DNA of 64,000 nt from Brytella acorum (GTDB lineage: Bacteria; Pseudomonadota; Alphaproteobacteria; Acetobacterales; Acetobacteraceae): contig NZ_JARBJP010000007.1 of NCBI RefSeq assembly GCF_029309905.1, positions 1-64,000 of the forward strand, written 5' to 3'. The translations under genes were made by a program, and so were the position numbers. Numbering within the stretch: the stretch's first letter is position 1; every line of letters starts with the position of its first letter. Below are positions 39,364 through 43,332 of the stretch, piece by piece. The notes under the pieces are model-generated. The model searched no databases. It worked only from the letters and a program-made list of their open reading frames with translations, and was not told the DNA's origin.

Positions 39364-39484
39364 CTGTGCTCCGTCGAGTTGGCGAGCCATTGCAAAAACA
39401 CCCGCTGAACACCGCATGGCGGCTTGCTTCCCTCTATGGTAAGCTCTTGGAAATGTCACGTCCCCCTTGCACACGCACGACATC

Positions 39485-41185
39485 ATGACCGACGCGCCCC
39501 CGAATCTGGACCCGCAAGCCGGGTTGGCGATCCCCTTTGCCGTCCGGGACCTCTCCGCATCCGGCATTATCGTCCTGGTCGGGCTCATGGGTGCCGGAAA
39601 GACCACGATCGGACGCCGCGTCGCACAACGCCTCGGCGTTCCCTTCATCGATGCCGACCACGAAATCGAACGTGCGGCCAGCTGCACCATTCCTGAAATT
39701 TTCACCCGTCATGGCGAGGCGGCCTTTCGCGACGGGGAACGCCGCGTGATCAGCCGCCTCCTCCAGGGTCCTCCATGCGTCCTGGCGACCGGCGGCGGCG
39801 CATATATGGATGCGCGGACGCGTCAGATGATCCGCCGGAATGCCGTCTCCATCTGGCTCCGCTGCGCATTGCCCGTTCTCGTGCGCCGAGTCGCCGGGCG
39901 CACGGGTCGGCCCCTGCTCGCCCAGGGCGACCCTACGGCCATCCTCGAAGAACTTCAGATCAAAAGACATCCTTTTTACGCGGAGGCGGATATCATCGTG
40001 GATTGCGGCGACGACAGCGTGGAAACCAGCTCGAAGCGGGTTCTGGAAGCCCTCTCCACTCATCGGCACCCGCCGCGCGTGCCGGTCCATCTCGCGTCTC
40101 ACCGCTACGACGTGATGATCGGTCCGGATCTGATCGCGCGCGCGGGTGCCCACATCGCACCCGTGATCCCGCAGAAACGCGCCATCGTCATCACCGACGA
40201 GCGCGTAGCCGCGCTGCACCTGCCCCGCCTGATGCAGGGGCTGGCGGAAACCGGCATCACCGCCAGGGCGTTCGTGATCCGCGGCGGTGAGGAATCGAAA
40301 TCCCTCGCCGTCTATGCGGAGTTGATCAACGACATCCTGGCTCATGGCATCGAACGTCACACCACGATCATCGGATTCGGTGGCGGCGTTGTCGGCGATC
40401 TCGCCGGCTTCATCGCCGCGACGGCCCTGCGCGGCGTACCGTTCGTTCAGATCCCCACGACTCTCCTCTCGCAGGTCGACAGTTCCGTCGGCGGCAAGAC
40501 CGGCGTGAACGCCACCAGCGGCAAGAACCTGATCGGTGCGTTCTATCAGCCCCAGATCGTGCTCGCGGACACATCGGCCCTGTCGACCCTTCCGCACCGG
40601 GAGCGGGTCGCCGGATATGCGGAGATCGTAAAAGCGGGACTCATTGACGGCCCCGACCTCTTCGGCTGGTGTGAAACCCATGGCGCCGCCGTGCTGGCCG
40701 GCGATCCGGCCGCCCAGGCGGAGGGCGTGCGCAGAGCCTGCGCCTTCAAGGCCCGCGTCGTACAAGCCGATGAACGCGAGCAGGCGGCGCAGGGCGGTCG
40801 GGCCCTGCTGAATCTCGGGCACTCCTTCGCTCACGCCCTCGAAGCCTGGTTCGGGTATGACGGCCGCCTGCTCCATGGCGAAGCCGTTTCAATCGGGTTG
40901 CATCTCGCCACCTCCCTTTCGGTACGACTCGGTTTTTGTGAAGAACACACCCTGACCCGTCTCGATGCTCACCTGCGTCAAAACGGTATGCCCGCCGGGC
41001 TGGACTGGTTCGGGGAACCGCTGAGCGCTGGAACCCTCGTCTCGAACATGGCGCGCGACAAAAAGATGCGGGACGGGCAACTGGCGCTCGTCCTGATTCG
41101 CAGAATCGGAGACTGTTTTACGACGCGCGACGTGCCGATGACGACCGTCTTCGAGTTCCTTCAGGACGAAGGTTGCACCGTCTGA
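39485..41185 (+). CDS. aroKB: Fused shikimate kinase - 3-dehydroquinate synthase (AroKB)
   Basis: Two enzymes of the shikimate pathway in one 566-residue chain. Residues ~25-195 are shikimate kinase: Walker [10 protein letters not shown] (34-42), [21 protein letters not shown] and RTGRPLL. Residues ~200-566 are dehydroquinate synthase: [20 protein letters not shown] and [19 protein letters not shown], with the metal ligands in [11 protein letters not shown] and [11 protein letters not shown]. The two genes are often adjacent in proteobacteria; here they are fused without a stop. Start at ATG 39485 (a TTG at 39467 is alternative). It is divergent from the small membrane gene/xerD. Confidence 0.96.
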
Positions 41186-41496
41186 ACGAAATTTCATCTC
41201 GTTTACATGGCGAAACCAGAGAATACGACCAGATACTACGATAACGATGTAGAACTGGCTTCGGCTTTCAGCTAAAGCCGGTGTCGCCAACAGGCGTTCG
41301 TCTTTCCGACGGAATGAACTGTTGCAGTTTAGCCACGGGGTCCCGGCAATCGGGACCCGGGGCACTGCAACCCGCTTCCTCCAAGGGAACCGAGCGCTCT
41401 ATACGCACTTATGCATCGCGCTGAGTCTGTTGCACGGCGCCCCTGGAGGGGTCCCCGGCAGCAGCTCGAATGGATGAATTAATGAGGACGAAATAA
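41186..41496 (+). promoter_or_regulatory. aroKB-ompA intergenic region and ompA leader
   Basis: The 311 bases contain no gene. In order they hold a 7-bp hairpin (41262-41268/41274-41280, CGGCTTT/AAAGCCG), which may help end aroKB transcription although no T run follows; the nested structure described at 41321-41371; a short CCCC-TGGA-GGGG hairpin (41440-41451); and a GAGGA ribosome site just before the ompA ATG. A long structured leader is common for abundant outer-membrane protein mRNAs. Confidence 0.5.
41321..41371 (+). other. Nested stem-loop in the ompA leader
   Basis: Three stacked helices can form: an outer 8-bp stem GTTGCAGT (41321-41328) with ACTGCAAC (41364-41371), a middle GCC/GGC pairing (41332-41334 with 41361-41363), and an inner 8-bp stem GGGTCCCG (41338-41345) with CGGGACCC (41351-41358), loop GCAAT. 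All pairs are Watson-Crick. It lies about 125 bases ahead of the ompA start. Candidate mRNA-stability or regulatory element. Confidence 0.65.
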
Positions 41497-42636
41497 ATGC
41501 GTCTCCGCACCGCACTTCTGGCCATGACGTCGATGGCCGTTGCCCCGACACTCGCCATGGCGAGCACGATCACGGGCCCGTACGTCGACCTTGGCGGCGG
41601 GTACAACCTCGTGCAGTCCCAGCACGCTCACTTCTCCGGATTTAGCGAAGCTGACGGCACGACCAACAACGCCGGCTCCAAGTCGCGTTATCGTCACCAT
41701 GACGGCTTCACCGGCTTCGGTGCTTTCGGCTGGGGCTTCGGCAACGGTCTGCGGCTTGAGGTCGAAGGTCTCTACAACTACTCGGAGATCAACCATCGTC
41801 GCCCGACGTCTGTCCAGGGTTCGACGCACGGTTCCGACCAGTCTTACGGCGGCCTCGTCAATGTCCTTTATGACATCGATCTGGCCCAGTTCGGCATCAA
41901 CGTGCCGGTTACGCCGTTCGTCGGTGTCGGCGCGGGCTATCTCTGGCAGCATTACAACCCGATCACCACGAGCTACAGCAATGGCAACGTGAACCGGGTC
42001 GGCGGCACGAACGGCGGCTTCGCCTATCAGGGCATCGTCGGTGCGGCCTATGACATTCCGGGCGTTCCCGGCCTGGCCGTCACGACCGAGTACCGCATGA
42101 TCGGCCAGACGTTCATGGATGGGGCCTACCACTCCACGGCGTGGAACCAGACCGGCCTGCACAAGGGTCACGTGAACTTCGATCAACGCTTCAACCACCA
42201 GTTCATCCTGGGTCTGCGTTATGCGTTCGACACGGCTCCCCCGCCGCCGCCGCCGGCGCCGGTTGTCGTGCCGCCCGCTCCGCAGGTCGCGCGCACCTAT
42301 CTGGTGTTCTTCGACTGGGACAAGTCTGTCCTGACGGGCCGCGCTCGTGAGATCGTTGCTCAGGCCGCCCAGGCTTCGACCCACGTCCAGACGACGCGCA
42401 TCGAAGTCAATGGTTACACCGACAACTCCGCGGCCCATCCCGGCCCGCGTGGTGAGAAGTACAACCAGGGCCTGTCCGTCCGTCGCGCTGACAGCGTGAA
42501 GGCCGAACTGATCCGTGACGGTGTCCCGGCTGCTGCCATCGACATCCACGGCTACGGCGAACAGCACCCGCTGGTCCCCACGGGTCCGAACACCCGCGAG
42601 CCGCAGAACCGTCGCGTCGAAATCATCCTGCGCTAA
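41497..42636 (+). CDS. ompA: OmpA-family outer membrane protein
   Basis: Abundant porin-like structural protein of 379 residues. A signal peptide (RTALLAMTSMAVAPTLAMA) is followed by an eight-stranded barrel (~residues 24-245; begins TITGPYVDLGGGYN), a proline linker (~248-263) and the C-terminal OmpA/MotB peptidoglycan-binding domain with NGYTDNSAAH, LSVRRADSVKAELIRDG and NRRVEIILR. Codon choice looks strongly biased toward a few codons, which suggests high expression. It is followed by two hairpins and a T run. Confidence 0.95.
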   Translation: MRLRTALLAMTSMAVAPTLAMASTITGPYVDLGGGYNLVQSQHAHFSGFSEADGTTNNAGSKSRYRHHDGFTGFGAFGWGFGNGLRLEVEGLYNYSEINHRRPTSVQGSTHGSDQSYGGLVNVLYDIDLAQFGINVPVTPFVGVGAGYLWQHYNPITTSYSNGNVNRVGGTNGGFAYQGIVGAAYDIPGVPGLAVTTEYRMIGQTFMDGAYHSTAWNQTGLHKGHVNFDQRFNHQFILGLRYAFDTAPPPPPPAPVVVPPAPQVARTYLVFFDWDKSVLTGRAREIVAQAAQASTHVQTTRIEVNGYTDNSAAHPGPRGEKYNQGLSVRRADSVKAELIRDGVPAAAIDIHGYGEQHPLVPTGPNTREPQNRRVEIILR

Positions 42637-42660
42637 TCCCGCGGATCACGTTCGAACGCG

Positions 42661-42717
42661 GCCTCCCCTTCACGGGGAGGCGGTTCAGGAAAAAGGCACC
42701 TTCGGGTGCCTTTTTTA
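42661..42717 (+). terminator. Double-hairpin terminator after ompA
   Basis: Two successive hairpins: GCCTCCCC/GGGGAGGC (42661-42668 with 42674-42681), then AAGGCACC-TTCG-GGTGCCTT (stem 42693-42700/42705-42712) followed by a T run to 42716. The second is a classic intrinsic terminator with a TTCG tetraloop. Confidence 0.93.
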
Positions 42718-42834
42718 TTGAAAACTGTGTCAGGGCCTCTTTGCGTCTTCGCACCCAGGCAGCCAGCCTCTATCCTCACAGATGGCATGGAATGCGTGGA
42801 CTCACGCAGTTTATCCTCCGCATGGTGATGTCGA

Positions 42835-43332
42835 ATGCTCGTGGAACGAAAAGTCCTGTCCCAGTTTCTGAGATTCGGAACCGTCGGTGTGCTCGGACTG
42901 TTCTGGGACACCGCCACCGTCTATCTGCTGCGCCCGATTGTCGGTCTCGCGACGGCCATCTTCTGCGCCTATTTTCTGGCGGCCTCGATCAACTGGGCCC
43001 TGAACCGCCTGTGGACGTTCCAGGGCGCAGGCTCTCACAAGCATATCATGTTGCAATGGCTGCATTTTCTCGCGGCCAACAGTCTGGGCTTCGTGCTCAA
43101 TCGCGGCACGGTCTATACGCTCTGTTTTACAATCCCGCTCTGCGCCCGATATCCTGTCCTTGCTCTGATGGCCGGGTCCGTGGCGGGGATGCTGGCGAAT
43201 TTCAGCCTCTCGCGGCGTCTTGTTTTTCGCGAGAAGTCGCCCGAGACCCCGGCCGAGCTTATCCATATGACCATCGAGCCGCTCGATGCCTTCCTTCAGC
43301 GGGGTAAACCGTCTTCACCTGAAAAGCACTGA
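42835..43332 (+). CDS. GtrA-like membrane protein
   Basis: The 165 residues contain four hydrophobic helices in GtrA/DPMS family layout: FLRFGTVGVLGLFWDTATVY, IFCAYFLAASINWALNRLWT, FLAANSLGFVLNRGTVY and ALMAGSVAGMLANFSLSRRLVF. The paired N-R-x-W-T-F and N-F-x-x-x-R-x-x-V-F motifs are characteristic. Such proteins are thought to help flip undecaprenyl- or polyprenyl-linked sugars across the inner membrane. No partner glucosyltransferase is adjacent. It ends 80 bases before alaS. Confidence 0.88.
   Translation: MLVERKVLSQFLRFGTVGVLGLFWDTATVYLLRPIVGLATAIFCAYFLAASINWALNRLWTFQGAGSHKHIMLQWLHFLAANSLGFVLNRGTVYTLCFTIPLCARYPVLALMAGSVAGMLANFSLSRRLVFREKSPETPAELIHMTIEPLDAFLQRGKPSSPEKH

Follow-up and report, generated by a model that had tools for sequence, protein, structure and literature searches.

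The gap between the aroB and ompA genes of Brytella acorum contains a long, nested stem-loop, which raises the question of whether this structure acts as an element of the ompA messenger RNA or in some other capacity. The gap lies in a window (that is, the whole stretch of DNA analysed) of 64,000 nucleotides, and the features that frame the question are the following:

39467-41185, plus strand: gene fusing aroK (shikimate kinase) with aroB (3-dehydroquinate synthase), the upstream neighbour (open reading frame; Pfam SKI, DHQ_synthase, DHQS_C)
41321-41371, plus strand: nested stem-loop or inverted repeat of 8 + 3 + 8 bp (folding, ranking)
41484-41488, plus strand: Shine-Dalgarno sequence GAGGA (sequence and conservation)
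41497-42636, plus strand: gene for an OmpA-family outer-membrane protein (open reading frame; Pfam OmpA PF00691, Surface_Ag_2)

A single reading frame (39467-41185) joins the shikimate kinase to the 3-dehydroquinate synthase, while the best named matches of the OmpA protein, taken among the best 80 of 581, come from Asaia, Tanticharoenia and Gluconobacter, with up to 87% identity. An aroB match adjoins ompA in 86 of the 89 loci examined; loci L093, L094 and L106 are without an upstream aroB match and have a different upstream region. Komagataeibacter xylinus carries a tandem pair of ompA copies (L099 and L106). In the window, a terminator-like hairpin (GGCACC-TTCG-GGTGCC followed by six T, 42695-42716) was seen by eye about 58 bases past the ompA stop and received no call in the terminator scan. 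The first-pass annotation had placed the stem-loop in a "311-base leader", but this is the entire gap from the aroB stop (41185) to the ompA ATG (41497), and its status as leader was only assumed.

The stem-loop itself is a real feature of the DNA. Folding returned the three stacked helices of 8, 3 and 8 bp exactly where they had been placed, namely an outer helix (41321-41328/41364-41371), a middle helix (41332-41334/41361-41363) and an inner helix (41338-41345/41351-41358) closing the loop GCAAT (41346-41350), with an extra isolated pair at 41336/41360. Its minimum free energy of -34.9 kcal/mol is the lowest among all 51-base windows on the plus strand of the 64 kb, its z score against 200 dinucleotide shuffles is -7.3, and the full stretch 41186-41520 has a fold z score of -3.8 (1 of 100 shuffles as good), so that the structure exceeds chance expectation. 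On the minus strand, sampled every 5 bases, the same place reaches -33.0 and is bettered by three other starts. The earlier statement that the stem-loop belongs to no recognised riboswitch class held up in an Rfam search of the window, which gave zero matches to riboswitch, leader or thermometer families at the curated threshold and four sub-threshold ones in 41186-41530, at E 2.4 or worse. A repeat-family element was likewise rejected, as the intergenic DNA has, besides itself, six genome matches of 15-20 bases with E above 3.

A strong GC-rich hairpin 136 bases past the aroB stop could also serve the upstream gene, by protecting the 3' end of the aroK-aroB mRNA or by terminating it. The stem-loop is followed by CCGCTTCC, without a T-run, and the terminator scan made no call here, leading to rejection of an intrinsic terminator; moreover, the hairpin is unconserved despite the conserved gene order. 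A role at the aroK-aroB 3' end is thus very improbable.

Whether the pairing is kept was assessed in relatives. The sample comprised named ompA loci, of which the 80 best among 581 were taken, and further loci; leaders were extracted from 104 of the 117 loci scanned, giving 105 with the window, 81 of them distinct. No leader could be taken from the other 13, where the start pattern failed; they are L029-L031 and the ompA loci L091, L092, L104, L105, L107 and L109-L113, the last ten being three from Saccharibacter, one each from Komagataeibacter and Endobacter, and five from Bombella/Parasaccharibacter. Another 13 of the 81 distinct leaders (L067, L090, L093-L096, L098, L099, L101, L102, L106, L108 and L125), i.e. 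ten from Komagataeibacter together with Commensalibacter L067, Lichenicoccus L090 and L125, were left out before alignment, either since a simple pattern missed their motifs or since their upstream region seemed unrelated. The main alignment thus holds 68 leaders of acetic acid bacteria, the window and 67 relatives, and statements on conservation refer to these 68, with the 13 omitted leaders and the ten unextracted ompA loci outside their scope.

Covariation over the aligned leaders, proposed earlier as the check on the stem-loop, found its pairs compensated nowhere beyond the nearest clade: the 20 drawn pairs were formed in 38.7% of cells in the 67 relatives, compared with 33.8-45.7% when the pairing was slid by 1-6 columns. 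The mean fold z score of the region was -0.32 over the 67 relatives and, against dinucleotide shuffles, -0.46 in 30 thinned relatives (6 below -1.5), the control region giving -0.03 in 31 leaders including the window (3 below -1.5). The exception is formed by the three nearest relatives (L009, L010 and L011), which join the window in one clade of an AroB+OmpA tree of 24 taxa (support 80) and each represent a genus for which congener searches found a single genome. They fold singly with matching outer and inner helices, and their consensus, calculated with the window left out, repeats all three helices (outer, middle and inner) at -9.78 kcal/mol; column shuffling did as well in 7 of 500 cases in one test and 9 of 1000 in another, and in 26 of 500 once the window was added. 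Since these relatives keep a similar nested fold and group with the window, the complementarity may be under selection, and the extra complementarity appears to be specific to this clade. The comparison lends weak support to a clade-restricted inverted repeat, chance being a possible alternative.

The same data bear on the reading closest to the original one, in which a promoter located before 41321, or read-through out of aroB, brings the entire stem-loop into the ompA mRNA, where it serves this clade as an RNA element. The great stability of the structure, the nested architecture shared by the three nearest relatives without the window, and the regular presence of aroB upstream all fit with this. 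However, the fold is unkept outside the four genera, the consensus shows no structure once L012, L013 and L018 are added to make six relatives, still without the window, and an equal score (z -2.7) was reached by 6 of 200 trios drawn at random from other, similarly diverged relatives. Together with the conserved promoter-like blocks located downstream of the stem-loop, described below, this makes a transcribed element distinctly unlikely. The RNA reading keeps partial support from the similar nested fold in the three nearest relatives, which is weak evidence, and from compensating changes in a different hairpin of the same leader, described below; the drawn pairs are not kept across the 67 relatives.

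Conservation in the 68 aligned leaders follows a different pattern from the pairing, with two conserved blocks, one at 41312-41338 and one from about 41375 to 41430. The first contains the 5' arm of the stem-loop in a conserved, partly palindromic motif:

41312-41338, plus strand: block A (GAAATGAACTGTTGCA..TT..A.CACG), partly palindromic, a predicted regulator site (conservation profile of 68 leaders; dyad at 41327.5)

The 3' arm stays below 0.6 bits everywhere, and most bases between block A and a downstream CTATA box vary. The distance from TGTNNC to CTATA is nevertheless 79 bases in 45 of the 68 leaders and 78 in the other 23, whereas the stretch between CTATA and the end of the ATG can be as short as 84 or as long as 108 bases. 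Such fixed spacing across mostly varying sequence would be expected of a DNA-bound regulator phased with a promoter. Dyad scores for centres 41300-41395 (mean 2.30, sd 0.55) point in the same direction, being highest at 41382.5 and at the centre of block A (4.29 at 41327.5), followed by smaller maxima at 41323 and 41393; the centre of the stem-loop, 41346, has no peak. Four Gluconobacter leaders (L046, L047, L050 and L052) carry block A as an almost perfect palindrome, TGTGAC-N6-GTCACT. A regulon-wide motif was rejected at the level of the exact pattern CTGTTGCN8CACG, which occurs once in the genome compared with 4 occurrences of the reversed control. Judged from these sequence comparisons, block A would be a control site in the DNA, some 83 bp ahead of a transcription start predicted near 41411.

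Two candidate promoters were recognised, with the start predicted for the first:

41376-41404, plus strand: predicted ompA promoter, TTCCTC (41376-41381), 17 bases, CTATAC (41399-41404), in a strongly conserved block
41411, plus strand: predicted start of transcription at an A, 7 bases past CTATAC (promoter spacing)
41322-41350, plus strand: alternative sigma-70-like promoter, TTGCAG (41322-41327), 17 bases, GGCAAT (41345-41350) (sequence and alignment)

A simple sigma-70 consensus scan of 40600-42900 gave no site and found neither of them, and TTCCTC is a poor -35 element. At the same place as the downstream candidate, a G. oxydans leader (L042) has TTGTCC-N17-TATATG, which fits the pattern given for abundant G. 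oxydans transcripts in excerpts of PMC5756330 (ttGnnn / Tatnnn, spacer 16-23). Within the predicted promoter GGAACC is conserved at 41386-41391 (dyad 41382.5, score 5.17). The window reads GGAACC-N7-CTATAC at 41386-41404 and many relatives have GGTTCC..GGAACC, possibly an operator between -35 and -10.

The upstream candidate overlaps the stem-loop, such that transcription would start near 41357 and carry the 3' arm alone into the message. Conserved features of the 68 leaders include TTGC and, further downstream, TAAT, and the 17-base spacer falls within the 16-23 of the G. oxydans pattern (same excerpts of PMC5756330), but the TAAT is moderately conserved and occupies alignment columns (41349-41352) at which the window has ATCG; its CAAT lies two bases earlier and makes GGCAAT a weak -10. 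The sequence just downstream is also unconserved, unlike the CTATA block and what follows it. A start near 41357 is accordingly unlikely, and this promoter could coexist with the downstream one. With either candidate the complete stem-loop would lie outside the ompA mRNA, and based on the sequence it is probably outside the main ompA transcript, whose predicted start is about 40 bases downstream of the stem. Among the literature matches listed, none was published work on an ompA leader RNA or a mapped ompA start in acetic acid bacteria, and "ompA" is absent from the main texts of PMC5756330 and PMC6191907.

Taken together, the explanation we favour, and consider probable, is that the stem-loop is a DNA inverted repeat upstream of the ompA promoter and not an element of the ompA mRNA, with a regulator at block A and a start near A41411. 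A regulator, probably an activator, is predicted to bind block A (dyad 41327.5) at about -83; TTCCTC-N17-CTATAC would act as the ompA promoter and direct transcription from near A41411, and the loop and 3' arm of the stem-loop would belong to the largely variable sequence that separates block A from the promoter. A cis-acting element, as originally proposed, is then probably present, and the 5' arm is its conserved part, but the evidence favours DNA over leader RNA, and the leader-RNA reading of the stem-loop is probably wrong.

The better-supported RNA structure of the leader is located elsewhere, beginning 43 bases past the end of the stem-loop:

41414-41476, plus strand: conserved 5'-UTR hairpin, CATC (41414-41417) paired with GATG (41473-41476), containing an internal loop and a stem that varies (folds, covariation, covariance model R1)

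Past the CTATA box, the thinned set of 33 leaders includes 25 that fold into a hairpin with CATC/GATG as its closing helix, or with a paired variant such as the CAGC/GTTG that replaces it in Acetobacter L063 and L085; the other 8, Gluconobacter and Neokomagataea among them, close otherwise. The mean z score of the downstream UTR against dinucleotide shuffles was -2.23, with 24 of 33 leaders (window included) below -1.5. For the window's own UTR, a stretch including 24 coding bases gave -0.84, and the shorter stretch without them -2.87. RNAalifold predicted zero pairs on the 33-sequence UTR alignment A2, which was ascribed to misalignment by MAFFT of hairpins of unequal length, and covariation was therefore counted on 14 chosen leaders of similar length. 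In these, 85.2% of cells were paired, 9 of 13 pairs showed two-sided changes and none of 500 shuffles scored as high on any of five measures, the structure being drawn from the individual folds of the same leaders and hence favoured by the count. The consensus of the window's clade (41411-41466) was not significant, with 75 of 500 shuffles as good for the three relatives and 53 of 500 with the window, so that support for the hairpin comes mainly from the wider family. By eye, an AUGGU-like apical loop was seen in many relatives.

The covariance model R1, built from the 14 chosen leaders, matched the window's UTR (41410-41480) with E 0.0024. Of the 57 sources, 26 scored an E of 0.01 or lower; 13 of these belong to the model itself. 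Matches were weak (E 0.03-2.2) in L009, L010, Asaia, Tanticharoenia and Endobacter, and the leaders of Gluconobacter, Neokomagataea, Bombella, Saccharibacter and Commensalibacter gave none. When 145 genomes were scanned, six matched; the best four matches precede an ompA start, no such start was seen at the two weaker ones (L131 and L132), and the window's own genome was missed at the setting used. In an alignment of 34 distinct matches, itself fitted to the structure, four measures beat all 500 shuffles and one was reached by 1 of 500; alignment A5 includes at least one chance match (L093, minus strand). No Rfam family matched the hairpin at the gathering threshold. From its position 3 bases past the predicted start, we infer that the hairpin probably opens the ompA message.

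The findings shift the focus from the stem-loop to two control features, the phased upstream site with its promoter and the conserved 5'-UTR hairpin, and carry the lesson that a stable intergenic fold is no leader element until the start site is known. Control of this gene may be of some consequence, as excerpts of PMC8102297 describe GmpA, an OmpA-family protein of acetic acid bacteria, as controlled by quorum sensing and as inhibiting the formation of acetic and gluconic acid. A more speculative reading, which we hold to be improbable, is that a clade of four acetic-acid-bacterial genera built the inverted repeat around the ompA control site and kept it as letters changed, as a structural switch. 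Such a switch might take the form of extruded DNA, or of RNA in read-through messages, and control access to the site on top of the 5'-UTR hairpin.

Among known systems, the envelope-gene regulators ChvI and CenR of alphaproteobacteria recognise TTGC-N3-GCAA in Caulobacter (excerpts of PMC9731502) and TGA-N8-TGA in R. sphaeroides (excerpts of PMC9275681), respectively. Block A contains TTGC, but both were rejected as exact boxes between the window's aroB and ompA: the ChvI box has 0 exact matches in the window, and none of the 24 window matches of the CenR box falls in 41186-41496. In class I activation, an activator binds upstream of the promoter at a fixed helical phase. The window resembles this arrangement in its partly palindromic site at about -83, with spacing fixed to 1 bp across a mostly variable spacer, the regulator and its binding being predicted here. 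The 5'-UTR stabiliser of E. coli ompA is a stem-loop at the very 5' end of the message. The window presents the same kind of gene, and its counterpart of the stabiliser would be the hairpin at 41414-41476 and not the reported stem-loop. The E. coli stabiliser is touched on in excerpts of PMC7509114. As with that stabiliser, the RNA between the window's hairpin and the Shine-Dalgarno sequence would be largely single-stranded, and by analogy the hairpin may protect the ompA mRNA that it is predicted to begin.
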